DNA of 20,762 nt from a virus. Positions 1-16,136 of the stretch are shown piece by piece; the stretch's first letter is position 1, and each line of letters starts with the position of its first letter. The notes under the pieces were generated by a model that did no database searches, was not told where the DNA came from, and saw nothing but the letters and a program-made list of their open reading frames with translations. Location: positions 1-20,762 of the IMG/VR virus record IMGVR_UViG_3300036845_000139, one strand, 5' to 3'. Made by a program: the position numbers and the translations under genes.

Positions 1-3000
1 TATACCTCCTGCCCATTCAGGCTCTCCCCGTCAATGAACTTCTCGAAGTTATCTCCCTGAGCTTGTAGCTCCTTCGCAATGTCCTGTAGGCTGCGCCGAA
101 CCGGCTTCCCAATCTGGGTGTAGATCTGATGGACCCAGTTCAGGTAGCTCTGATCAATCACATCTGGCCGGGTCCTCTTGGCATTGACCTTGGCCGTGCG
201 ATCAAAGCTCTTGACCTCCTTCTCAAAGGCCTTGGCCTCCTTCGCCTTCGCTATAGCGTACTCACGTTGCTGGGCGAACTTGAACGCCTCGTCCCACTTC
301 TCCTTCAACGCAGCTAGCTCTACCCTATCGCTGGCCCGCTTGGCATTCTCCATGAAGTTCTGGTACGTGATCTTCTTCAGCCCCATCCGCCGAACCGACA
401 TCTTGGCCCTAGCACCCAGCACCACTGGATCGATGGGGACCTGCTGCCCCGCCTGCTCCGCATAGTGCAAGGTTTCTTCGTGGAGATAGTCCGTCGTGTG
501 CTTGGAGAGCATGGCCTCTACATTAGCGTCAACCTCGTCCTCCATCCTCCCATACTTCACCTCCATCATGCGATCAGTTTCCTGATCCACGATCTTCTTC
601 ATGAACTCCCTCGGCTCCAGCCCAGAGGTCTCCCTGGCATCCCTCAGCCCAGCCATCCTATCGAGCATCTGCTGACCGGTCCGGTACCCAAACAAACCCG
701 CTACATCGTCAGGGTGCAAGCCGATCTTAGAAAGGTAGGGCTTCAGGATCTCCCTGTAAGCCTCCGGTACTGCGTCCAGCCTGAGCTTGGGCCTCGTCGT
801 TACCTTCAATCCATGAAGGGTCCCCTTGTCGAAGAAAGCATCTGCCGCTACGTCCGGACGTTCGCTGATCCTCTGATCAACCTCCTTTCGCATCTCCCTT
901 CGATTATCTCGCCACTCCCGGCTCTGCCTCTTCTCCTCCTTCCTCCGCAGACGTTCCTCATTCGCCGCCCTCTCATTGAGCCACTGGTTCTCAATCGCCT
1001 GGACGTACCTTTCATACTTGTCCTTCGACATCCCAGGGCCTTTGGCCACGAAAGGTCTCCCCGGGAGCCTCTGCTCCTCTGGCTTAGCCTCTGGCTTGAC
1101 CTCAGGCGCCATTGCCATGGCCTCAACACCCCCTTCCGGCCCCATCCCTGGCAGTGGCGCTGGCTCCCTTGCTCCTATCTCCCCTAGATCCGTCGCAGTG
1201 AAGAGTTCCTGCCAGTTGGGATCCCTCTTCATCCCCCTCATCAGGTCGAGCCAGCCCTTGCCAATGCTCTCCAGGGTCTCCTTGATCCTCATGAAGTAGT
1301 CATGGATCGAAGTGTTTGCGTCTACCTTCTTGCCAGCCTTCCAGAATGCAAACTCCTCGGCGATGGCCTCCTCAAGCATCGCCTCATGGCTTAGGCCCAG
1401 CGGGGTGTACCGTTCCCTGATGTCGTGCTTGTCGATCCAGTTCCCGGCCTCTGCGGCGGTCTCCAGGATCCTCCACTCCTTGGGGGAGAAGAGCCCCATG
1501 TTTCGCAGGATATGAATGGCCTCGTGCCGCACCGTACGGAGTGGGGCCATCCCCTCGTTCTCAAGGGACCAGAAAAGGAGGGGAAGCCGATCGTTGTAGA
1601 ACTGGGCCACCCCACCGACCAGTGCACCCTTCATCCTAATGGCCGAGGCCTGGGCCCATTGGACGTACTTCTGTTCGCCGAAGATCCTGGACAGCTCCCG
1701 GTCCATCATGTCATAGACCTGGTGCTCAATCGCCGACCATTCCTCCGCCGGCTTGATCGCCACACTGACGTTCCGCGAAGTCTCCATCCACCAGCCGGGC
1801 TTGGTCAGGTCCTCCATGCCCTCAACGACGGTCCACCCCTCAGGCCCGCTGGGGAACCCCTCAACGTCCCACTTCACATTCGCTAGGTCTATGGGCTCAG
1901 CCCCCTCCCCAGTGATGGTCTTGACCTCAGGGAACTGTTCATGGAGTTGCTTGGCCATCTCCATAAGGTTCTTAGGCCCAAGGCTGTCCTTACTGAGCTG
2001 GTCGATGTTCAGGGTCTTGGCATCATGCGAAAGCGTCGCCTCTAGGTCTCCGACTCCCAGACCCCTGTCGTTGACAATGCTGAATAGATGCCGCGTCGGC
2101 TGCCCAATCCTCTCCGCTACCCCAGCCGGGGTTTCGTTGATTTTCTGGAGAACGAGCTTGTTCGCCTGCCCTGGGCTGAACGCCGGATCCGCCCCTGCGA
2201 CCTGCCGAACCTGATCCGGCATCTCCGGCGGAACCCTTTCAACCGGCACCTGCGCCTTAGCCTCAGCGACCGTCCTCCCATTCGGCCGCAGTCGGAGATT
2301 GTCATCTCCTATCGCAGTCTGGACCTTTGGCTCGACCTTCGTCATCCAATCGCTGAGAGGGATGGTTATATCCCCACCATGCTCCTCAGCATCGGCCATC
2401 TTCTGGGCCAGCCCATCGACCACGTCCCCTAAGAGACCATCCCCAACCTCAGGGACCTTGTCCCCATACACCCCCCTAATCGCCTCAACCGGGATATCAA
2501 CATCAACATCACCGTGGGCCTTTATGAAGTCATTAACAAGATCCTCTCCACCCTCACGGCCAAGTGTCCTAACGTTGATGGCACTCTGCATCGTCTCCTT
2601 GAGCTTCGCCACATCGCTGACGGCATTAGCATCCTTGTACGCATCAATGGCTGGGCTTAGCCCCGTCGGTGGCTCCTTGTTAGCCCTGCTCCAGGCCGCC
2701 AACCCATCAGCAGTAGCCTTGACCTGTGAGAGGGTTTCCCCCGCCGCTCGACGAGCCGCTGCCTCTCCAATGAGTCCGGCTGGGAGCTTTGCAGCAATCT
2801 CTGGAAACTCGCCGAAGAAGTTAGCAGCAAGGTCCACCACTGGGCTTGCTACGTCATAACCAAGCCTTATGGCTTGGCCCTCTTCGCCTCCAAAGTCCCT
2901 GACTAGACCAAGACCAATGCCAGTAGCGCCAGCAGCCTTCAGGCCCTCCGTCGCATGCTCAAACCTAACCAGGAACCGGGCGGTCTCCTGGCCAAATCCA

Positions 3001-3482
3001 TACTTCATAAACCTGCTCCACCACCTACTCTTGGACCAATTGTCCATGGTGTTGAACAGCGCATCACCCTGAGGCTCTATACTGTCGGCGTCGTACTCCT
3101 TAGTGAAAGCATCCATAACCCTCTTGGCATCAGAGTCCCCAGTCGAGTTCATTGCTATCAAGCTTCGAGACAGAATGTCCAGGTTCCCATAATCATCGTT
3201 GGAAACCTTCGAGGCCATGGGTTGGCCGTTGATGTACTTCTGAAGGAAGGGATTGCCCGCAATAATGTTTGACGCAGCAACCTGCTTCTGGGTCTTCTCG
3301 AAGTTCTCGGTGTTGGCGTGGATAACTGGGGCAGGAACGCCGGTCAGCTTGCTGAGGTGCAGGGCCCGTCCAGCGTCATCAGGGTCTTCATCCAGGTCCC
3401 CAATGGCCTGCATCCTGGCAGTTGCTCCCCATGCCTCCGGCGGTGGCGCCTGTTCCACATCCTCGTCGTCATCGCCATTCAT
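1..3482 (-). CDS. Giant internal virion protein at the T7 gp16 position, with HEXXH metallopeptidase-like motif (3'-truncated by window)
   Basis: The frame is open from ATG at 3482 to the window edge, giving at least 1160 residues with no stop, so the C-terminus is missing. The ATG overlaps the TGA of the upstream gene (ATGA). Residues about 465-530 resemble the degenerate acetyltransferase-like segment of phage polyvalent proteins (VGDLEATLS...LGPKNLMEMAKQLHEQFP). Residues 653-657 are HEAIH within RHEAIHILRNMGLFSPKEW, followed by LEEAIAEEF at 703-711. This is the layout expected of a gluzincin-type zinc peptidase, with E704, E705 or E709 as possible third ligand. Residues about 840-873 are a highly charged Arg/Glu helix. 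No transglycosylase domain is visible at the N-terminus, unlike T7 gp16 (1318 aa). Position after gp13-, gp14- and gp15-like genes suggests an ejected core protein. The role is inferred, and protease activity is unproven. Confidence 0.8.
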   Translation of the reverse strand, partial: MNGDDDEDVEQAPPPEAWGATARMQAIGDLDEDPDDAGRALHLSKLTGVPAPVIHANTENFEKTQKQVAASNIIAGNPFLQKYINGQPMASKVSNDDYGNLDILSRSLIAMNSTGDSDAKRVMDAFTKEYDADSIEPQGDALFNTMDNWSKSRWWSRFMKYGFGQETARFLVRFEHATEGLKAAGATGIGLGLVRDFGGEEGQAIRLGYDVASPVVDLAANFFGEFPEIAAKLPAGLIGEAAARRAAGETLSQVKATADGLAAWSRANKEPPTGLSPAIDAYKDANAVSDVAKLKETMQSAINVRTLGREGGEDLVNDFIKAHGDVDVDIPVEAIRGVYGDKVPEVGDGLLGDVVDGLAQKMADAEEHGGDITIPLSDWMTKVEPKVQTAIGDDNLRLRPNGRTVAEAKAQVPVERVPPEMPDQVRQVAGADPAFSPGQANKLVLQKINETPAGVAERIGQPTRHLFSIVNDRGLGVGDLEATLSHDAKTLNIDQLSKDSLGPKNLMEMAKQLHEQFPEVKTITGEGAEPIDLANVKWDVEGFPSGPEGWTVVEGMEDLTKPGWWMETSRNVSVAIKPAEEWSAIEHQVYDMMDRELSRIFGEQKYVQWAQASAIRMKGALVGGVAQFYNDRLPLLFWSLENEGMAPLRTVRHEAIHILRNMGLFSPKEWRILETAAEAGNWIDKHDIRERYTPLGLSHEAMLEEAIAEEFAFWKAGKKVDANTSIHDYFMRIKETLESIGKGWLDLMRGMKRDPNWQELFTATDLGEIGAREPAPLPGMGPEGGVEAMAMAPEVKPEAKPEEQRLPGRPFVAKGPGMSKDKYERYVQAIENQWLNERAANEERLRRKEEKRQSREWRDNRREMRKEVDQRISERPDVAADAFFDKGTLHGLKVTTRPKLRLDAVPEAYREILKPYLSKIGLHPDDVAGLFGYRTGQQMLDRMAGLRDARETSGLEPREFMKKIVDQETDRMMEVKYGRMEDEVDANVEAMLSKHTTDYLHEETLHYAEQAGQQVPIDPVVLGARAKMSVRRMGLKKITYQNFMENAKRASDRVELAALKEKWDEAFKFAQQREYAIAKAKEAKAFEKEVKSFDRTAKVNAKRTRPDVIDQSYLNWVHQIYTQIGKPVRRSLQDIAKELQAQGDNFEKFIDGESLNGQEV

Positions 3483-5701
3483 TTAGACACCGGTATTACT
3501 GGCTCTGCTGGGGTGGGGACTGGTGTTCTATCCCCCCTGGGTCTGGCCTCCTGGAACATCGCGTTGTACAGTCGATTGAAGTATTCACGTTCGATCTGGT
3601 GCTGCTGCGGGGTTGCACCGTACTTGGCCTCAAGCTCCTTAGTGATCTGCTGCTTATACTCATCCGGGATCGTCTGATACATCACATCCTTGCCGCCGAA
3701 GAAGCCCCTGATCCCACCAGCTGCCTTCTCCTGCAAGATCTGTGCACCAATGGCCTGCTTCTCCTGCGGACTTGGGGGCTTCCCATACTGCTCCGTATGT
3801 GCATCCCACGCCCCTTGCACCGCAGAGATGAAGCTCCAGTAATCCTCCGAGTTCTTCTTGATCCCGGCACTGTTCATTAACGAACCATAGGCCTGATTAA
3901 CATGCGACACTGAGGGTTCGTCCTGGCCCCACCTAGACTTATTCTGCTGGAACTTCTTCATCAGGGCGTCTGTCATCTTGTTGGGAAGATGCTCGTTGGT
4001 GAGATCCACTTCGTTCTGGAACTTCGCCTTCCCATCCGCCGTATTGAGCATTCCATCCAACACGTGGTACCGTGCCTCCTTCTCCGGGGTTAGCTCAAAA
4101 CCCTGGACAATGTTGGAGTGTATCCGTTTCATTATGTTATCTCTTTGCGGCTCAGTAAGATTGTCCCAGGACCGTTTCACAGCTGGGTCGGCAAAAAGCT
4201 GGTCCGGGTTCTGTACGAACCTACCATCCGGTCCTGGCTTAGTAGTGGCCCCTAGGACTGTGCTCCAGTTGTCGAAGTTAATCTCCTTCTTCTTCTGGTC
4301 GTTGATTGAGTTCTGCCTCTTCACTGCCTCGTCTAGGTATTTGGGAAGGAGGGGGAAGTCGTTGTTTGGGTCCAGTACCTTCCCCTGCTCTTGCGCCGCC
4401 GCTGATAGCTCGTTATCCCCTGCGGTCTTAGCCAGCCTCGCATGGGTGTTGGCTAGATACTTGTCAATCGTCGTTCCGAAGAGGTCATGCTTCCCAGCCG
4501 CCCTAGCACTGGCTATGGAACCCCCGGTAAACCAGCGTGACGCAGCCTCGTCGAAGCTCCCGGTGCTATCCATCCTCTTCTGGAAAACCTTCGTGAACAG
4601 TTCGTCCTGCTTCCCAGGATCTTTCAGGAACTCCTCAGCGGTCATGGGCTTCATTCCTGCCTCTTTCAAATAGTCAGGCAGGAACTTCTCCATCACCTGA
4701 TACCGGCCCAGGGGACGACCATACGGCGTCGAGATATCCGGGTGGCTTGCGTAGTTGTTACTCGACTCAAACCCTCCGATAGCATCCCTAGCCCGCTCAA
4801 TTGCGACCTTGTGCTGTCCCAAGAAGGGAACACGCCCAGTCGTAAGGTCCGCTACCACCCCTCTAGTAAGGACTTGGTAGCCGGGGTTCCGGACCTTCTC
4901 CTCAGTCTGTGCAACGTCGTCGTTGTTCAGCATCCCATCCTTCTGGTACTTCTTCAAGTACACCATAGCAGTGGTGGGATCGACCCTGGCCAGCTTTTGT
5001 ATGGCAGAGCTTAGTGCTGTACTCTTGTTCTTCGCGACCTCCGCGTTAATCGCATCCTCACTCCACCCCTTCCCATCCGTCCCCACTGCCCCTCCAAGGA
5101 ACGTTCTGGTACTCTCCTCCACCTTCCCCAGCATATTATCGATCTGTGCAGCGTCGGTCGGCATCAGCGAGACGTTATTGACGTCGTAGGATACCCTCGC
5201 CTTGCTGGTAGCATCCGTCCAAACCTTGTGCTGACCCCCTGCGTAGCTAGCCCCATTGGCGAACAGCCGGTTCTGGCTAGTCCTGGTCTGCATGTCGAAT
5301 TCGCGTTGGGCCTCTGGGTTTGTCAACCTCGATCTATGTTCCTGCCGGACCTGCTCCAGCTTATCATTGAAGTTGCTGAAGGCATCGACGGCGTTCTTTC
5401 CCTCGTTCTCCTTCAGCTTCTCAAACAGCTCCGTCTGTGCCTTCTCCGTATCGATCGCGGCATTCGTTGCATCATTGGAGTTGTCGAGCTTCTTGAACGC
5501 CTCGGCCCTGCCGAACAGCTCCTGACCGGTCTGTTGGGTAACGGTGCCGAAGTGCTCCAGCGCCGAGCCAACGCCGTACCCAAAGACATCCGGCCCTAGC
5601 TCCGGCGTCTGAACGCGGATAGGCCCTGCGCCGGTCCCTGGATAGATCGGCCGACCTAGATCCCTAACGCCGGGAACTGGATTATATGGAACCTGTGGCA
5701 T
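3479..5701 (-). CDS. Internal virion protein at the T7 gp15 position with lytic transglycosylase (SLT/lysozyme-like) domain
   Basis: 740 residues, close to T7 gp15 (747). The ATG shares one base with the upstream TAA (TAATG). Residues about 45-280 are helical and charged. Residues about 303-425 look like a lysozyme-fold transglycosylase: AIGGFESSNNYA with candidate catalytic glutamate E312 (codon 4766-4768), then TPYGRPLGRYQVMEKF, a Gln/Asp segment (DPGKQDELF) and ASRWFTGG. Such domains cut the glycan backbone of peptidoglycan, here probably to open a path for the ejected core or DNA. The C-terminal 300 residues are helical without a recognised domain. In T7 this activity resides in gp16, so the domain has a different carrier here. 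Assignment as a virion core protein rests on gene order and length. The enzymatic domain is well supported by motifs. Confidence 0.85.
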   Translation of the reverse strand: MPQVPYNPVPGVRDLGRPIYPGTGAGPIRVQTPELGPDVFGYGVGSALEHFGTVTQQTGQELFGRAEAFKKLDNSNDATNAAIDTEKAQTELFEKLKENEGKNAVDAFSNFNDKLEQVRQEHRSRLTNPEAQREFDMQTRTSQNRLFANGASYAGGQHKVWTDATSKARVSYDVNNVSLMPTDAAQIDNMLGKVEESTRTFLGGAVGTDGKGWSEDAINAEVAKNKSTALSSAIQKLARVDPTTAMVYLKKYQKDGMLNNDDVAQTEEKVRNPGYQVLTRGVVADLTTGRVPFLGQHKVAIERARDAIGGFESSNNYASHPDISTPYGRPLGRYQVMEKFLPDYLKEAGMKPMTAEEFLKDPGKQDELFTKVFQKRMDSTGSFDEAASRWFTGGSIASARAAGKHDLFGTTIDKYLANTHARLAKTAGDNELSAAAQEQGKVLDPNNDFPLLPKYLDEAVKRQNSINDQKKKEINFDNWSTVLGATTKPGPDGRFVQNPDQLFADPAVKRSWDNLTEPQRDNIMKRIHSNIVQGFELTPEKEARYHVLDGMLNTADGKAKFQNEVDLTNEHLPNKMTDALMKKFQQNKSRWGQDEPSVSHVNQAYGSLMNSAGIKKNSEDYWSFISAVQGAWDAHTEQYGKPPSPQEKQAIGAQILQEKAAGGIRGFFGGKDVMYQTIPDEYKQQITKELEAKYGATPQQHQIEREYFNRLYNAMFQEARPRGDRTPVPTPAEPVIPVSK

Positions 5702-6291
5702 TAGCTCGTGAACGTCCCACTCTTATAGGCACTAGCACCCTGACCAGCTAGCTTGCCTACAGTTCCAAGGATCGAAGACTCCACCGAGATGTCCCCGGCG
5801 GTCTTCGCATAGCTCGCCGCCTGTTGCTCATAGCTCGATGTCGTCATGTCCCAGTTAGCCTGCTCACCGAATTGGTAGGCCTGAACCTCATACCCATACG
5901 CCGTCTTCTGCGCATTGCTCCGGATCATCGAGATGTTTTCTTGACCGACCGACATCATGGCCGACCGAACCTCAGCGTTAGATCCGCTATTGATATCGAG
6001 GTTTCCGGCCCCCTGCTGAGCCCTGGTCGTGGACAGATCCTCGCTTACCTTAATCGCCTCCTGCTGAGCCTCCACCTCCCCGGCATGAACGGCATAGCTT
6101 GCGTTCTGATCCGCGATCGTTTGGTTCTGCTTCGCGATGCTAGCCTGATACTGTGCCTCCTGGGACTTGAATAGGTCCGCCTGCTGTTGGGCCTGCGCCT
6201 GAACCTGAGCCCCCTGCGCCTGCGATATACCGCCAAACAACGTCGAGACCATCCCAACGCCAGCCATCCCGGCTGTTACTGGGTCTGCCAT
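5701..6291 (-). CDS. Internal virion protein, T7 gp14-like
   Basis: 196 residues, the same length as T7 gp14. The N-terminus is short and hydrophobic/Gly-rich (TAGMAGVGMVSTLFGG), followed by a long Ala/Gln-rich helical stretch (QAQGAQVQAQAQQQADLFKS) and a Gly/Ser-rich end. This composition is typical of the podovirus core protein that enters the outer membrane during ejection in T7. The start at 6291 overlaps the upstream gene by 16 bases and is preceded directly by a GAGGAGGAGGAG purine run (6292-6303), which serves as the ribosome binding site. It lies between gp13- and gp15-like genes. Sequence similarity in this family is low, so the call leans on composition, size and gene order. Confidence 0.75.
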   Translation of the reverse strand: MADPVTAGMAGVGMVSTLFGGISQAQGAQVQAQAQQQADLFKSQEAQYQASIAKQNQTIADQNASYAVHAGEVEAQQEAIKVSEDLSTTRAQQGAGNLDINSGSNAEVRSAMMSVGQENISMIRSNAQKTAYGYEVQAYQFGEQANWDMTTSSYEQQAASYAKTAGDISVESSILGTVGKLAGQGASAYKSGTFTS

Positions 6292-6740
6292 CTCCTCCTC
6301 CTCCGTCCCTTAAAGCTCTCCGGGGTTATGTAGAACGGAACCAAAGTCATCTCGTGGTTGAAGTAGATGGCCCCCAGCCACTTCAACCACTTAAACGCCC
6401 TCTGGTCCTTCACATGAGTATCCCCAATGATCATCTCAAATTCCTTCAAGACGTTCTCAATCACTATCTCCGAATGCCGAATGAATTCGAACTTGTTCCG
6501 GTCCAGAGCTTCTGTGGTCAGCAGCCACATATAGGCCTTGCTATTCGACAACAGCGTTGGGGGCTTCAGCCCATAGATGCAAACTATCTCCCCATTGATA
6601 TACCCCACATAATTAGACTGGCTGGAACATATGAATTTCTGCAAGAACTCCATGCCCCTTGGCTCGCCGGCAACAGGGCTATTCCTCAGGATCTCATCGT
6701 AGTTGAGCTTGGTGTCTTCGACCCTCTTGATGGAGATCAT
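6276..6740 (-). CDS. T7 gp13-like protein with acetyltransferase-like (GNAT) fold
   Basis: 154 residues (T7 gp13 is 138). The order of elements fits a GNAT-like fold: an N-terminal helix (YDEILRNSPVAG), a strand pair around NYVGYINGEIVCIYGLKPP, a helix with basic/aromatic residues (RNKFEFIRHSEIVIENVLKE), and a late strand-helix unit (DQRAFKWLKWLGAIYF). The C-terminus ends in a basic run (KGRRRRRW). In T7, gp13 is needed for assembly of the internal core or virion and is not known to acetylate anything. No clear acetyl-CoA P-loop (R/Q-x-x-G-x-G/A) is visible, so enzymatic function is doubtful. The ATG overlaps the stop of the tail-tube gene (ATGA). Confidence 0.7.
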   Translation of the reverse strand: MISIKRVEDTKLNYDEILRNSPVAGEPRGMEFLQKFICSSQSNYVGYINGEIVCIYGLKPPTLLSNSKAYMWLLTTEALDRNKFEFIRHSEIVIENVLKEFEMIIGDTHVKDQRAFKWLKWLGAIYFNHEMTLVPFYITPESFKGRRRRRWQTQ

Positions 6741-9328
6741 CTGACTGTGTCTCCAACGGTTACCTCCGGGATCACTCCAAGAATCGTTGCCGGAAGGGGG
6801 TTATCCTGCTGCAAGCATATCTGTCCCGGCACGTCCCACAGAGGATCCATGATCACACGTTCATCCCCGGTGACCAGCGGGATCGTCTGACCGAGGAACT
6901 GTCCCTGCGACCACTCTTTGATCGGCGTCATGTTGACAAAGCTCTGGCCGAAGCTGAGCCCCCTGGTTTGGGACAGCCTGATGCTGAGGGCCGAGATCTT
7001 CTTCCTCTTTCCCTGGATGCTGTCCTTCTGGTCCCCTAGATCCAAGGGCATCGTCTGTAACTGGGCTATGAAAGCAAGACCTACAGTAACCTTGGTCGCT
7101 GGTTGTTCCAACGTAATCGATCCATTCTCCACTACCTGTGGCGCCAGCACATTCCCATCAGCGAGGATCGAAACGGTCTGTTCCTCCAAGTAATCCAGTC
7201 CAATGACCGTAGTCACTGGTGTCCACACTGTCCACTGACCTGGACCTTGTATCACCGGGGTCCTCAATGGATCATTGGGCACAATAGCAGTGATCGGTTG
7301 TGTTATATCGCCGAAGACATCGTTCGGCGAGACAAACTGAGTTATAGTAGCTATACCCCCGCCGGCTCTAATCACCTTCCCAACCATATCAGGGGTGAAG
7401 ACAGGATTATCAGCTACAAAGAAGACAACATGAGTCCCTGTGCTAGCACTAACAGACAACGTCCCATTAAGGGCCTGCCCTCCAGTCTGCGACCCACAAT
7501 CTACTCCCCAAGCATCCTCTGCCCCATAGGGCAGCTTCCTATCGTCCATCCGTTCAATGAACTGCCAGTAGTTTCCTCCGAACAGCCGCTCAACGACAAA
7601 GTAGGTAGCATCAAAGTTCCCCTCGGTAACCGTCGCAACTGACTTAAATCGCCCCTGGGTATCATGCCTAGCCCACCCATGGAGCTTCTGTTCCTTCAAG
7701 TACGTGAACGACAGAACTTCACCATCGTTCCTTACGCACCAAATCACCTTGAAGGGTTCCTCGGCGTAGGCCCACTGTGTAATCTGGTAGCCAAAGAAGA
7801 GATGATTAGATAGGACCGATACATCAGAGCCAGTATAAATATTGGCATAGATATTATACTCAAGATCTCTAACGATAGAGTTCTTAAACTGGACATAGAG
7901 AACGTCCTGGTTGATGATGATCGGCGGAACGTCGGAGATCCCATTGTAAGCCTGGGGGGTGGCGGTGGCATTAATTGGAGTAACGGCGGCCGTGGAGGCA
8001 AGACCGCCGGTTCCAGAGGAGAGCTGCCACGCGCCACCTGAAGTCAGCATTATCAGACCTCCAGGCATTGGCACCATAGCCTTAATGTAATTGACCTGCA
8101 AACTAACCAACGTTCCGGTAATAGCATCGGCAGCCTGGATTGGATTGGACGTATTGAAGTTGGTGTAGTACCCTGGCTGTGATCCCCAGAACGTCTGAGG
8201 GAACTGATTACTCCCTGCGAAATACAACCTCTGCTGGAAGAAGGCTGCACATCCGGGATCGTTCCCTCCAGCGAATGGGTTCTTGACATTAGGCGGTGTC
8301 GTCGTGAAATCCGGAACGATGTTTGAGTCAATGGCCTCAGTACCGGTCGTCGAAGTGATGAAGCCATAGGAGGCCCCACCGGGGACGAGAACGCCAATTC
8401 CGTTCTCAGCCTTGTATACATTGTACCCCGCAGCCCCAGACACCGCAGACCAGTCGATTATCAAAGTCCCAGCAGTAGCCCCAATGTCCACCGAAGCTGC
8501 TGATCCACCAGGGGGCGAGGGAGATGACTCCTGCCCCAGACCATCCACGGCGGTTACCACATAGGAAAAGTAGGCATTGCCCGCAGCTGTCACGGTAATC
8601 GTTGGGGTGCCTGGACTACCAACCGTAGATCCAGCAGTAAATGCTGAAAAGCCCCAATTAGTTGGACTGGCGAACGTTAGTACGTATGGAGGATACGATG
8701 GGTGGGTTAGGTACATCACATTAGCAACTTGGACAAACTTCAGTAGAGCCAGATCCACCGCAGCATATGGTGATGCGATCTGATAGATCTTGTTCGTCTG
8801 CCCACCGCTGGTATATGTGCCATAGTTGGTGCTGTCGACAGGGTTGCCATAAGTGTCAAATACCGTGAGCTGGCTTCCGCTAATGCTCTCAATGACGAAG
8901 TACCTATCGTTCAGCTGTACTGTCCCCCCAATGCCGGTGAGGAGAACCCAATCCCCATCAACGTAGGTATGCCCAGGCGCAGTTAAAATCGTCGTCGTTC
9001 CCTGGGTGACGCCGGTTATACTCACTGGAGGGAGGAATACCGGTGCTCCCTCGGAGAGTGGCCTCATATACTTGTCGCCGAACTCTAGAACATACGGCAC
9101 CAAGATCGAGGTCTGGAAGGGAATCACCCTCACCGGCAGGGCGGAGTTAAAGGCCTGAACGACGAAAGCTGTACCAGCTCGCGTCGAAGCCCCAGAGCGG
9201 TAGTCAACGAAGAAGTTCCTCATCATCGCTGCGCCGGTATGGTACTGTTCCATATCGACGTGAGCGAAGATGTTCGGCGACAACTCACCGGAGGCAAAGC
9301 TAGTTTGTATGACGTTCTGTTGGGCCAT
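6737..9328 (-). CDS. Tail tubular protein B (T7 gp12-like nozzle), enlarged by inserted domains
   Basis: 863 residues (T7 gp12 is 794). The N-terminus QTSFASGELSPNIFAHVDM and the following NFFVDYRSGASTRAGTAFV are hallmarks of the family, as is FFQQRLYFAGSNQFPQTFWG at about 364-383. I place the start at the ATG at 9328, which overlaps the TGA of the preceding gene (TGATG). The longer upstream frame to 9355 would run inside that gene. Residues about 103-176 form a beta domain (APGHTYVDGDWVLLTGIGG...TNYGTYTSGG) of the small-barrel type often seen in phage tail proteins. Residues about 235-340 look like a fibronectin-III-like beta domain (YFSYVVTAVDGLGQESSPS...SAVSGAAGYNVYKAENG). The protein forms the distal tail tube or nozzle and docks fibres in T7. 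Confidence 0.9.
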   Translation of the reverse strand: MAQQNVIQTSFASGELSPNIFAHVDMEQYHTGAAMMRNFFVDYRSGASTRAGTAFVVQAFNSALPVRVIPFQTSILVPYVLEFGDKYMRPLSEGAPVFLPPVSITGVTQGTTTILTAPGHTYVDGDWVLLTGIGGTVQLNDRYFVIESISGSQLTVFDTYGNPVDSTNYGTYTSGGQTNKIYQIASPYAAVDLALLKFVQVANVMYLTHPSYPPYVLTFASPTNWGFSAFTAGSTVGSPGTPTITVTAAGNAYFSYVVTAVDGLGQESSPSPPGGSAASVDIGATAGTLIIDWSAVSGAAGYNVYKAENGIGVLVPGGASYGFITSTTGTEAIDSNIVPDFTTTPPNVKNPFAGGNDPGCAAFFQQRLYFAGSNQFPQTFWGSQPGYYTNFNTSNPIQAADAITGTLVSLQVNYIKAMVPMPGGLIMLTSGGAWQLSSGTGGLASTAAVTPINATATPQAYNGISDVPPIIINQDVLYVQFKNSIVRDLEYNIYANIYTGSDVSVLSNHLFFGYQITQWAYAEEPFKVIWCVRNDGEVLSFTYLKEQKLHGWARHDTQGRFKSVATVTEGNFDATYFVVERLFGGNYWQFIERMDDRKLPYGAEDAWGVDCGSQTGGQALNGTLSVSASTGTHVVFFVADNPVFTPDMVGKVIRAGGGIATITQFVSPNDVFGDITQPITAIVPNDPLRTPVIQGPGQWTVWTPVTTVIGLDYLEEQTVSILADGNVLAPQVVENGSITLEQPATKVTVGLAFIAQLQTMPLDLGDQKDSIQGKRKKISALSIRLSQTRGLSFGQSFVNMTPIKEWSQGQFLGQTIPLVTGDERVIMDPLWDVPGQICLQQDNPLPATILGVIPEVTVGDTVR

Positions 9329-10140
9329 CAGTACATGCTCAACACATTGCCCCAATCGAACTGGATGTTAGGGCTCCAACTGTAGTCCGAAGGAAAGTCT
9401 ATCCCTCTCACCCTAATCCAATCCGGCGTCACATCGTTGATCGTCAGCCCTTCATTCCCATCCGTCTGCCTAGCGGCAACCAGATGCAAGTTAGCCTCTT
9501 GGATCTTAATATTCGCTAGGCCCTTATCCCCAGTAAGTGCGAATATCAACCTCCCAGCTAGGGCCGCAACCCAGGCTTCCACGAAGAGGGCATCCATAAC
9601 GTTCGGATCAGAGATCCTCTTAATGTACGTTAGGATCGCCGACTCTTGATTGGTCAGAATGACCCTGATGTCGCTCCCTATGTTAGATGGCTTGCCAGTC
9701 TGATCGATCTGATCAATTGCTACCTTGAACTTAACCGGCGGGCCGTTCCAGAACTGTGGGGCCCCGCCGGTCACAGCCGTCGTGATTGGTACACCACTGG
9801 CAAACCCAGTCGTGAACTGGGGTACGATCCACAGTGGCCTCAGGCAGTCCGCAGGATATGCATACTCGTACGCCCAGGGCGGGGGTGGTTGACCTTTCTG
9901 CCAACTGCTCGTTCCGGCGGAAGGGTTCTCTGGCGTCCCTGGAGCAGCACAGATCAAGCCTAAGTTGGCCGTATTCGTCGCACAGTTCCATGGCGCAAGC
10001 CTCAGCAGCTCATCTCTAACCGGTTCGATAGAGAGGGCACATTGCCTCGCTTCGGCACTGTTCTCCGTAAGCGAGGCAATGGTCGTACGTGTGCCAATAG
10101 ACTGTAGCGCTCTATTGGCGACGTCAACTTCAGCAGTCAC
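9328..10140 (-). CDS. Tail tubular protein A (T7 gp11-like adaptor)
   Basis: 270 residues. The N-terminal helix VDVANRALQSIGTRTTIASL and the segment EPVRDELLRLAPWNCA, followed by YAYPADCLRPLWI, are the classic signature of podovirus gp11-like tail adaptors that connect the portal ring to the nozzle. The start is a GTG (10140-10138). It is backed by a purine-rich Shine-Dalgarno AAAGGGAG at 10147-10154 with good spacing and by overlap with the TGA of the upstream gene. It lies directly before the gp12-like gene with a TGATG junction, matching the T7 gp11-gp12 order. It is longer than T7 gp11 (196 aa), with a Pro-rich insert at about 63-90 (GTPENPSAGTSSWQKGQPPP). Confidence 0.9.
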   Translation of the reverse strand: MTAEVDVANRALQSIGTRTTIASLTENSAEARQCALSIEPVRDELLRLAPWNCATNTANLGLICAAPGTPENPSAGTSSWQKGQPPPPWAYEYAYPADCLRPLWIVPQFTTGFASGVPITTAVTGGAPQFWNGPPVKFKVAIDQIDQTGKPSNIGSDIRVILTNQESAILTYIKRISDPNVMDALFVEAWVAALAGRLIFALTGDKGLANIKIQEANLHLVAARQTDGNEGLTINDVTPDWIRVRGIDFPSDYSWSPNIQFDWGNVLSMY

Positions 10141-12606: not shown

Positions 12607-14094
12607 TCATGTCACGTCATCTACCCAGCCCAGAACAACCACCAAGCAAGTGCCACCGTAGTTGGCGAAAACTCGCAGTTGCTGCGACGTGTTGCTATAA
12701 TTAAAAATGCCCTCGGCATAAGAATAGAAACCGGTCGCACCACTGATCGAGCCGCCTAGCATGCTCATGTAAGTCTGAACATTATTGTCAGCTAGGTCTG
12801 GGCTGTAGAACCGTAAGCTAGTGGTCGCACTTGCTCCCTGCTGCTCCACCGACAGTATAGGACGCACCTGAACCCCAGGCGGGATACTAGGAAACGTCAA
12901 ATTGGCTGGCGTTGAACTGACCGCCGTGCCAGCGATGTCCTGGACCGGTATCTGCCAGTAGAACGTCCTCCCACGTTGTAGCCACCCTACAAAGACGCTA
13001 GTCCCAGAGGTCTTGAACGAGCCTATCCTTCGCTTCTTGGTATAAGGTGATGGCATCAACGGAGCCGTAGCGCTCAACGACGTTAGAATGTCAACCACCC
13101 CAGTATCAGCTCGTGCAATCAGGAAAACATGGTACCAAGTATTAGCAGTGATTGCTCCGGTGTCCAAAGACCCAACAGTAGCTCCTGACCCAGCTGCGAA
13201 GGGGTTGGAAGTTCTCTTCTGAATTATTGAGGACAGTACCATCATAGTGGTATTGTCATCAGAGCAGGCCGAACCGGGACTTACGTCAAGCACGGTGGTT
13301 GGCGAGGCTGGAGTATCAGATTGCATCCCCAGCCCAGACAGATACCCTGGCAGTACAAGAGCAGGAGCCGAACCTCCTTGCGAAGCCGATGCCCCTGCAC
13401 CAATGTACTCGGTAATGATGACCACGCCGTTGGAGCCGTTGCCGCCGGGATAATTCTGACCGGCTCCATTGCTCGCTGCGCCACCACCACCGGCACCATA
13501 ATTGGAGGCATTGCTGCCTGCGTTTACCGCGCCGATGGCGGGTGGCCCGCCACCACCGAATGCCGAACTGCCGCCAGCGCCACCGGTATTTCCGATCGAT
13601 GTATTCAAGGGATTGTAAACACCGGCCGTTCCGGGAGCGCCAGCAAATATGACATCACCGACGCAGCCACTGACGACACCGCCAGCAGCACCAATACCGC
13701 CTGCGTTACCGGTCCCGCCACCGCCGCCGCCTGTGGCAACAACTAAAGACCCCAGACTCGTCGAGGCCCCAGCCCCACCACCAGAACCGGCTGGTCCCCC
13801 TGCTCCAGCCATCCCAATAGTTATCGCCTGCGATGCACCAATCTGTGCCGGCGTGAGTACCCTACGTGCATAAGCCCCAGAGCCACCACCGCCGCCTGAA
13901 AAATACGAATTTGCGGTTCCATTTACGCCACCACCACCACCGCCACCACCGATAGCCTCAGCAATCGCCGAAATCAAATTGGCCGACGGCGTATAGGTCC
14001 CTGACGCCGTGAAGACCGTCGTCTTGACTGAAATAACTGTCGAGGTAGCGTTAGGCTGCCCCGCTAAGTTTATATCCCAATCACTAGGCATCAT
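12607..14094 (-). CDS. Glycine-rich tail fibre/adhesin protein
   Basis: 495 residues, starting at ATGATG overlapping the upstream TGA. Residues 26-60 (VFTASGTYTPSANLISAIAE followed by a Gly run) open a glycine-rich domain that runs to about 230 and ends VVIITEY. It has repeated GGGG runs, as in the Gly_rich_2-type phage domains and reminiscent of the polyglycine sandwich of T-even gp38 adhesins. Residues 248-491 form a beta-rich module, shared with the fibre encoded at 14091-16136, that contains TWYHVFLIARADTGVVDIL and PYTKKRRIGSFKT. Probably a host-recognition protein on the tail. No enzymatic motif is visible. The display half differs completely from the upstream paralogue. Confidence 0.8.
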   Translation of the reverse strand: MMPSDWDINLAGQPNATSTVISVKTTVFTASGTYTPSANLISAIAEAIGGGGGGGGVNGTANSYFSGGGGGSGAYARRVLTPAQIGASQAITIGMAGAGGPAGSGGGAGASTSLGSLVVATGGGGGGTGNAGGIGAAGGVVSGCVGDVIFAGAPGTAGVYNPLNTSIGNTGGAGGSSAFGGGGPPAIGAVNAGSNASNYGAGGGGAASNGAGQNYPGGNGSNGVVIITEYIGAGASASQGGSAPALVLPGYLSGLGMQSDTPASPTTVLDVSPGSACSDDNTTMMVLSSIIQKRTSNPFAAGSGATVGSLDTGAITANTWYHVFLIARADTGVVDILTSLSATAPLMPSPYTKKRRIGSFKTSGTSVFVGWLQRGRTFYWQIPVQDIAGTAVSSTPANLTFPSIPPGVQVRPILSVEQQGASATTSLRFYSPDLADNNVQTYMSMLGGSISGATGFYSYAEGIFNYSNTSQQLRVFANYGGTCLVVVLGWVDDVT

Positions 14095-16136
14095 TTACCT
14101 CGATTGTCGAACCAGCCTACCGTGCCGATAAAAAGCCCGGTCCCCGCCGCCGCTCCAATGACCCGGACCTGACTAGTTGTGTTGGTGCGGATGACCAACT
14201 GACCAGCATTTGTGTTATTCAGGGTCATCGATCCAAACACAGCCTGAGAATCAGGTGACATCACGTTGATGGCCGAGCCAGTATTATTAAACGTATTGAT
14301 GATCGCTCGCGTCTTTATCCCCAACGGTACCGTTGCTGTGACGAGTCCTCCCGGTGCGACAGCGACCCCGCCACCATTGTAGACGTCATAGCCAAGATCC
14401 ACCCCCCACAAGAACTGATCGCCAAGCTGCGTAAACGCCATTATCTGCGACGATGCGTTGGTCTTGATCGAGCCAATTCTCCTCTTCTTCGTGAATGGAC
14501 TTGGAACCGTCGGTGCTGTTGCGCTCAATGAGAACAACACATCTACCGCACTAGTATCCGTCCTTGCGATCAGGTAGACATGATACCACGTTGAAGCAGT
14601 AACTGCCCCAGTGTCAAGCCCAGCTGTGCCTGATCCAGCAGCGAATGGACCTCCAAGCAGCTTGGTAAACGCCGAACTCAGAGCCAATGTGTATGTATTA
14701 TCATCAGAGGCCGCAGCACCTGTAGCAACGTCCACGACCGTCGTCGCCGACGTGGCATCGTTCGATAGGGCCAAGCCACCGAGATAGTTTGGTAAAACCG
14801 GCAATGCGTAAGGCGCAACGCTGGTCGAGAGCAGATCAACGTTAAGCGTCAAGGCCCCTGTCGTCGAGTTATAGGAAGTAACAAGCCCTTCCATCCACTG
14901 CGTCGGCACGCTAGCTGAAGAGAGCCTTGTGCGGGCACCAATGGTATAGGCCAGCCCCGGCTGGGTTATAACCGTAACCGGCCCAGTAACAAGCGAGGCG
15001 TTGGTAGTGCTAGTGGCCAGATATCCTGGACCAGGAGTTCCCGGTCCACCACTACCACCAGGCGGAACAGTCCAAGTAGAATTCTCGCAGAGGTACCTTG
15101 TTGTCCCAGCTGTGGCCCCCGGATCAGGGACTTCGCCCTTAGCATGGCTTGGGCCAGAAGCCCCAAACACAGGAATAGTCACAAAGCCTGTAGCTACGTT
15201 GATGGTGGCATCACCCTGCATGGTGAAGCCAGCGAACGCCCCGCCGTTGTTCCACTGAAGCTGTCCACTCGTCCCACCAGGGGTTCCACCAGTCGGCGGT
15301 ACTGCCCACAGAGCATTCTCACACAGGAACCGGGCAGTCCCTGCGGTAGCACCGGGGTCAGGTACAGTACCATGAACGTGGTTGGTGCCTGAAGCTACGA
15401 AGTCCTTCAGGGTGATAACCCCGGTCGATGGAGCCAACGTAGCGTCACCGGACATGGTGAAACCACCAAAGGCTCCGCTATTGTTGTATTGAACCTGCCC
15501 ATTGGTCCCAGCTGGCGTTGCTCCTGGACCAGGCGGCCCTGGTGCCCCATTTGGGCCTGTAGGACCCTCTGGCCCAATCGGCCCTGTTGACCCAGCAGGT
15601 CCAGGCGGCCCAGCACCAGCTACAGCGAAACCATCGAAATATGTGTTAATCGAAGACGATAGTATCGTATTGGCAACGGAACTGTTAACCCAACATTCGT
15701 AATAATCAGACCCACTGGCATTATCGACCATCGAGACAAATACATCAACCTCGGTCGACGTAGTGCTCTTAATACTCGTTCCGTTCTTGTAGATGGCAAC
15801 GCCAATGGTCCCAGCAGCCGAGGGAGCTAGCTGTGCCTCAATCTGCACTGGCCCAGCCGCTGGCGTCCAACGACTTTGAGTAGTGTCGTACTTTCCGTTC
15901 TGATTGAAGCCCGCAACGTTGAAAGTGACCTTCGTCCAAGTATTCGCAACAACTCCAGTCTGCGTTGCACTTAGCGTAGCTACAAAGCTGTCCGCAGGCC
16001 CAGCGTGGCCCCCACCGCCCCCGCTGGATGCTATAGCATTGGTAACGAACCTAGTGTTGGCTACGGCGTTAGTCGAGTCCCCTGCCAGCCGATCAGGGGC
16101 GACGAAGTTACCAAACTCGGTGAATTGGTCAGCCAA
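14091..16136 (-). CDS. Modular tail fibre: C1q-like domain, collagen-like repeat, tandem duplicated units, shared C-terminal module
   Basis: 681 residues with a TTG start (16136-16134). A TGA lies in frame just upstream and no earlier ATG or GTG exists, and the start overlaps the preceding stop by eight bases. Order: fibre connector motif (DSTNAVANTRFVTNAIA, about 20-36); a C1q/TNF-like beta domain (about 49-172, with ANTWTKVTFNVAGFN and GKYDTTQSRWTPAAG); a collagen-like run of about nine Gly-X-Y triplets (176-205); two tandem units of about 74 residues (210-283 and 288-361); and a C-terminal module (about 448-680) related to the next gene. Collagen-like segments in phage fibres trimerise the shaft. 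Role: probable receptor-binding fibre. No T7-type N-terminal attachment domain is present. Confidence 0.8.
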   Translation of the reverse strand: MADQFTEFGNFVAPDRLAGDSTNAVANTRFVTNAIASSGGGGGHAGPADSFVATLSATQTGVVANTWTKVTFNVAGFNQNGKYDTTQSRWTPAAGPVQIEAQLAPSAAGTIGVAIYKNGTSIKSTTSTEVDVFVSMVDNASGSDYYECWVNSSVANTILSSSINTYFDGFAVAGAGPPGPAGSTGPIGPEGPTGPNGAPGPPGPGATPAGTNGQVQYNNSGAFGGFTMSGDATLAPSTGVITLKDFVASGTNHVHGTVPDPGATAGTARFLCENALWAVPPTGGTPGGTSGQLQWNNGGAFAGFTMQGDATINVATGFVTIPVFGASGPSHAKGEVPDPGATAGTTRYLCENSTWTVPPGGSGGPGTPGPGYLATSTTNASLVTGPVTVITQPGLAYTIGARTRLSSASVPTQWMEGLVTSYNSTTGALTLNVDLLSTSVAPYALPVLPNYLGGLALSNDATSATTVVDVATGAAASDDNTYTLALSSAFTKLLGGPFAAGSGTAGLDTGAVTASTWYHVYLIARTDTSAVDVLFSLSATAPTVPSPFTKKRRIGSIKTNASSQIMAFTQLGDQFLWGVDLGYDVYNGGGVAVAPGGLVTATVPLGIKTRAIINTFNNTGSAINVMSPDSQAVFGSMTLNNTNAGQLVIRTNTTSQVRVIGAAAGTGLFIGTVGWFDNRGK
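15054..15509 (-). repeat. Tandem duplication of a ~74-residue fibre unit
   Basis: Unit A (15288-15509) and unit B (15054-15275) share the same skeleton: GT.GQ.Q.NN.GAF.GFTM.GDAT, then PDPGATAGT.R.LCEN..W.VPP. Similarity is visible in DNA as well as protein. Two extra or fewer units would change fibre length, which is a plausible reason for the duplication. Confidence 0.85.
15522..15611 (-). repeat. Collagen-like Gly-X-Y repeat
   Basis: About nine uninterrupted Gly-X-Y triplets (GPPGPAGSTGPIGPEG and onward) encoded within the fibre, linking the C1q-like domain to the duplicated units. Such runs can form a short triple helix in trimeric phage fibres. Confidence 0.85.
15621..15992 (-). other. 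C1q/TNF-like jelly-roll domain within the fibre
   Basis: Residues about 49-172 of the fibre. The pattern W-T-K-V-T-F-N, then G-K-Y-D-T-T-Q-S-R-W-T-P-A-A-G, and regularly spaced strands (VFVSMVDNASGSDYYECWV) resembles the C1q head. In most C1q-type proteins the head follows the collagen stalk; here it comes before it. The assignment is by motif and would need a structure prediction. Confidence 0.6.

Follow-up and report, generated by a model that had tools for sequence, protein, structure and literature searches.

The window, by which we mean the whole stretch of DNA analysed (a linear IMG/VR virus fragment of 20,762 bases), encodes a large ejection-type protein at the gp16 position of a T7-like tail/core cassette. 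Judging from residue conservation and the predicted fold, this protein very probably contains a true zincin whose active site is intact. It is read here as an injected metallopeptidase payload acting on host proteins, with a probability of about 0.5.

Cassette layout and domain content

The cassette lies on the minus strand and follows the gene order of T7 (Table 1). About 20 of the contigs fetched show the same gate-nozzle-gp13-gp14-gp15-gp16 order with most or all of the genes. The start of the gp16-position ORF overlaps the stop codon of the gp15-slot gene, and complete homologues of its product are mostly about 1850-2370 aa long. Within the nozzle, an insert is weakly matched by the FCCH/E1-type Pfam model PF16190 (E 1.4e-5); related phages carry this annotation too. 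Elsewhere in the window (14091-16136 (-) and 12607-14094 (-)), a protein resembling a tail fibre has a collagen-like Gly-X-Y stretch, and its C-terminal domain is found again in the gene next to it.

Table 1. Features of the ejection cassette and of its gp15- and gp16-position proteins
Feature	Position	Strand	Remarks
Tail gatekeeper/adaptor (gp11-like)	9328..10140	-	phrog_394, E 2e-43
Tail nozzle (gp12-like)	6737..9355	-	phrog_376, E 7e-172; 190 phage records
gp13-position internal virion protein	6276..6740	-	phrog_308, E 2.5e-15
gp14-like internal virion protein	5701..6291	-	PF24072 T7_gp14 weak; phrog_418, E 8e-18
gp15-position protein	3479..5701	-	740 aa
Lysozyme-like/SLT-type transglycosylase domain in gp15-slot protein	4379..4846	-	residues 286-441; catalytic Glu candidate E312 (4766-4768)
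gp16-position large ejection-type protein	3..3482	-	1160 aa; ORF leaves contig start, so incomplete
LPD22 (large polyvalent protein associated domain 22)	3171..3413	-	residues 24-104; Pfam PF18834, E 1.9e-11, over cut-off
GNAT-like domain	1866..2162	-	residues about 441-539; model residues 12-110 match GNATs (Foldseek, VIA-align)
Zincin-like metallopeptidase domain	1263..1733	-	residues about 584-740
HEAIH	1512..1526	-	residues 653-657; predicted zinc ligands H653, H657; E654 predicted general base
E704-E705	1368..1373	-	E705 best candidate for third zinc ligand; ExxA pattern common to other zincin clades
Beginning of conserved C-terminal module	3..1115	-	module about 1100 aa, incomplete here; PHROG 9880 match at residues 816-1123

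By the definition of Iyer et al., the gp16-position protein counts as polyvalent, as it combines LPD22 with unrelated catalytic domains (GNAT-like, zincin) in one large phage protein. Some of its relatives carry PBECR5 or ART-PolyVal domains; in Carin1 gp32 (L003:8709-17273), a protein of the same kind, PBECR5 is a nuclease domain matched by PF18814 (E 8e-19). The PHROG 9880 family matched by the C-terminal module has no function assigned in PHROG. An acetyltransferase-like remnant had been proposed upstream of the zincin, and the model and the VIA-align matches to GNATs bear this out. In the alignment, the position where a Q/R-x-x-G-x-G/A motif was sought reads DSLGPKN in the window copy versus NxFGPAL in relatives. 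The usual end of the CoA loop appears to be lost (LGPKN versus FGPAL), so that the label 'remnant' may be right; the domain is probably weakened or inactive.

The original prediction had also set the protein apart from T7 gp16 by the lack of a visible transglycosylase. None is found in residues 1-1160, but the contrast with T7 is not supported, as the domain sits in the adjacent gp15-slot protein. A model of this domain (pLDDT 87) matches almost exclusively lytic transglycosylases, lysozymes or chitinases, including T7 gp16, with a best Z of 9.9. The Pfam SLT model did not match it, though the fold agrees. The domain is an insert (about 296-430 in the alignment) present in 6 of 17 gp15-slot proteins and cleanly missing from the other 11, and the candidate catalytic Glu is invariant in all six. 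In several isolates with a related nozzle, the gene in the same place is annotated as SLT, lysozyme, endolysin, lysis protein or structural lysozyme. With this lysozyme-like/SLT-type domain, the phage would not be without a transglycosylase, and an annotation trap is corrected: the gp15 slot, and not gp16, holds the transglycosylase in this group. One gp15-slot protein (L109:6904-9276) is annotated as peptidase family M23 rather than as transglycosylase, suggesting that the cell-wall enzyme at this place may be exchanged too.

The zincin-like domain

Scanning viral contigs with one sequence, either the full protein or just the zincin, recovered no relatives, and alignment-based scans were needed. 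Starting from a tblastn match in Ruegeria phage 45A6, the resulting alignments reached 165 matching stretches in viral contigs; one relative (L006) aligns over nearly the full window protein at 24-28% identity. Conservation counts from scans with HExxH as search pattern were dropped as circular, and all counts quoted here come from other patterns.

The HEAIH motif is present as predicted, followed by LEEAIAEEF at residues 703-711, and it is the sole HExxH in the 1160-aa protein. In an alignment of 20 cassette gp16 proteins, H653, E654, H657, E704 and E705 are invariant, as are L659, E669 and W670, and the HExxH is present in 20/20 loci detected by scan patterns that do not contain it. Outside the catalytic and ligand residues, the zincin domain is just 24-37% identical.

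An AlphaFold model (m20886297814c) was made for residues 430-800 from 24 aligned sequences, with a mean pLDDT of 73.7 and a pTM of 0.56 (model number + 429 = residue). HEAIH lies on a predicted helix (218-232, local pLDDT about 84) with both histidines one turn apart, preceded by strands (179-210), and E704/E705 (E275/276) are on the later helix 270-286. Together with the invariant residues, this layout supports the predicted gluzincin-like zincin of the phage polyvalent protein type. Two findings would have spoken against that prediction, histidines not adjacent on a helix and a lack of H, E, H conservation among homologues, and both checks came out in its favour. In VIA-align, the anthrax lethal factor zincin domain takes the four best rows for the zincin part (Z 7.0-7.2 over 145-149 aligned residues; top row Z 7.2, rmsd 4.2, 145 aligned), with SPRTN-type 6mdx at Z 5.4; all Z are under 8, and a Z of about 7 is also reached by models without true relatives. 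Lethal factor is the reference fold used by Iyer et al. for polyvalent MPTases (PMC5512222). Foldseek alone returned GNAT-type and spurious top matches, with GNATs ranked first, and the missing zincin families in its list were given no weight as evidence. With middling Z values and this Foldseek ranking, the fold call depends on motif, invariance, helix order and structural comparison combined. From these we infer zinc binding by H653, H657 and E705, the last being chosen by pattern, and catalysis.

By sequence, the zincin domain has no peptidase match in Pfam or the PDB. PF18818 (MPTase-PolyVal) gave no match over cut-off in the window protein or its 24 aligned relatives, and no other Pfam peptidase matched the window's zincin clade convincingly. 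The kind of protein itself is already known. The protease had been put forward as a notable function, but such proteases are a described class: Iyer et al. (2017) distinguish 12 clades of zincin-like MPTases, the commonest domain of polyvalent proteins, and count the N4 vRNAP among such proteins (PMC5512222); PF18818 in Pfam is one domain of this type. In these MPTases, as in the model of the window protein, HExxH lies on one helix and a Glu on a subsequent one, with a small sheet before. They too sit in large multidomain phage proteins with LPD22, GNAT-like, ART or nuclease domains (PMC5512222), and their lethal-factor-type zincin fold is a putative further resemblance. The window's clade differs in lacking a convincing match to PF18818, and no Pfam peptidase model matched it. 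The closest zincin clade outside the cassette is that of a 3912-aa protein of Ruegeria phage 45A6 and its relatives (phrog_10691). There, the zincin also directly follows a GNAT domain, although genome type and architecture (helicase, methyltransferase, LPD38) are different.

The slot upstream of the C-terminal module

Relatives were also surveyed with the downstream C-terminal module of about 1100 aa alone, a search blind to HExxH, which gave 126 non-redundant proteins with a full slot. An HExxH is found in the homologous slot of 115 of them, against a chance expectation of about 3; outside the slot, it occurs 8 times in 191,477 residues, or about 0.027 per 640 aa. The motif invariably lies a short way before the module (median distance 140 or 178 residues), with one per protein nearly everywhere. 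These counts bear on whether HEAIH could be a chance motif inside an unrelated fold. Lone motifs do arise, as the chance HERLH at 559 of T7 gp16 shows, and HExxH by itself therefore proves nothing. Nevertheless, the invariance, the helix placement and the excess over the roughly three expected in the slot contradict such an origin, which we regard as extremely improbable.

Within the window's branch (n = 57), 33 proteins belong to clade A, 4 to clade B, 10 have other HExxH domains and 10 have none. In clade A, EE[AGS][IV][AV] follows 43-47 residues after HExxH in 32 of 33 members. Among the ten with other HExxH domains, L167 of clade C gives the only MPTase-PolyVal (PF18818) match, a weak one (E 0.028). 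Clade C gathers by exclusion what fits no other clade, and clade D is a single row. Based on sequence, the slot is shared by three or four divergent clades of putative zincins. At least 12 changes of slot state are counted on the tree of the C-terminal module, a quick tree with long-branch warnings on which the starred branches alone force fewer per group (A 8, none 5, C 3, B 2).

Among the ten zincin-less proteins of the branch, an ART-PolyVal-like domain replaces the zincin in three (L161, L156, L188; one over the Pfam cut-off), three have a GNAT-like domain, as counted by profile, and six have no recognised payload either. Conversely, 12 of the 47 zincin-bearing proteins have no recognised GNAT or ART alongside.

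Cultured phages show the same arrangement. In nine cultured or complete podophages with a related nozzle, the gp16-slot protein has exactly one HExxH, between its N-terminal parts and the homologous C-terminal module, while Ab31 and HTVC010P, also with a related nozzle, have shorter gp16-slot proteins in which no HExxH was found. The BPP-1-like podophage proteins BPP-1 Bbp10, Carin1 gp32, SR18 gp40 and PfDIW6 gp16 occupy this gene position, are homologous in their N-terminal parts and C-terminal module, and contain a single HExxH in the slot. They carry a zincin of a diverged clade (STFLHExGHFYLE ... HEQWARGFEAYLxEGKAPS), which hhalign relates to that of the window with an E of 1.8e-5 and a probability of 78, spanning the HExxH and the ExxA helix.

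Possible roles of the predicted protease

As the last-encoded, large ejection-type protein of the cassette, the gp16-position protein would consist of LPD22, a linker, a payload region (GNAT-like and zincin) and the conserved C-terminal module. It would be carried in the virion core and enter the cell together with the DNA; judged by its position in the ejection cassette, packaging and injection are likely. Once inside, Zn2+ would be held by the two histidines and E705, with E654 as general base, and the zincin would most likely cleave host proteins as a payload enzyme. T7 gp16 is also large and takes the same place in the gp13-gp14-gp15-gp16 order, but it has an N-terminal transglycosylase and no zincin, whereas the window protein begins with LPD22. 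No profile similarity was detected between the C-terminal module, or the large core domain, and T7 gp16, and distant homology may remain. The C1 domain of the N4 virion RNA polymerase gp50 offers another comparison: this giant podophage protein is also ejected and has HELVH, its zincin motif, at 2228, with a large C-terminal region behind it (PMC12633501), although the window protein contains no polymerase. Profile searches detected no similarity of N4 vRNAP to the window's zincin or C-terminal module.

The zincin might also be a self-processing protease, cutting the junction between payload and C-terminal module at core assembly or after ejection and so releasing the payload from the channel/core module. 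Iyer et al. propose processing as a main role of polyvalent MPTases and cite the cleavage of P1 DdrB ahead of packaging (PMC5512222). The fixed position of the HExxH, with nearly always one per protein and always just before the C-terminal module, and its retention in about 90% of the proteins would suit self-processing too, and the six zincin-less proteins that also lack a recognised payload agree with it. Against it, L161, L156, L188 and L136 retain ART and/or GNAT payloads without a zincin, N4 vRNAP and the MPTase proteins of plasmids are delivered uncleaved (PMC5512222), and no cleavage site was identified in the gp16-position proteins. Self-processing is a possible but less favoured role.

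Alternatively, the fold could be retained for structure, for example as a dock between payload and C-terminal module, catalysis then being incidental or lost. N4 vRNAP provides a precedent, since its HExxH domain C1 is integral to the C-terminal domain in the structure (PMC12633501) and the protein is packaged unprocessed (PMC5512222). Yet catalytic and ligand residues are invariant in a domain that otherwise has diverged widely, and several divergent clades in one slot all retain HExxH, which a purely structural role should not preserve in all of them. A structural role is therefore quite unlikely. The ten branch proteins without a zincin indicate that it is not essential to core function. 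An injected effector directed at host proteins is favoured by payload swapping, by replacement with ART-like domains and by zincins that have no recognised neighbour to set free. As main target, host proteins are ranked slightly ahead of the phage protein itself, and a target that is neither of these is unlikely.

More tentatively, the slot could be dedicated to proteases: a conserved delivery scaffold in a very large podophage group would repeatedly swap unrelated-looking zincins, occasionally an ART, at one fixed point, giving a host-adapted injected protease with targets differing by clade.

To our knowledge, phage proteases injected alongside DNA have been predicted and hardly tested. Our search of the literature, whose coverage was incomplete, found no report that the gp16-slot proteins of this group contain a zincin. 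The present reading would tie an injected protease to a recognisable cassette in many phages, cultured ones included, such as Bordetella phage BPP-1 with a zincin in the same slot. The slot, conserved yet exchangeable, is the part worth following.
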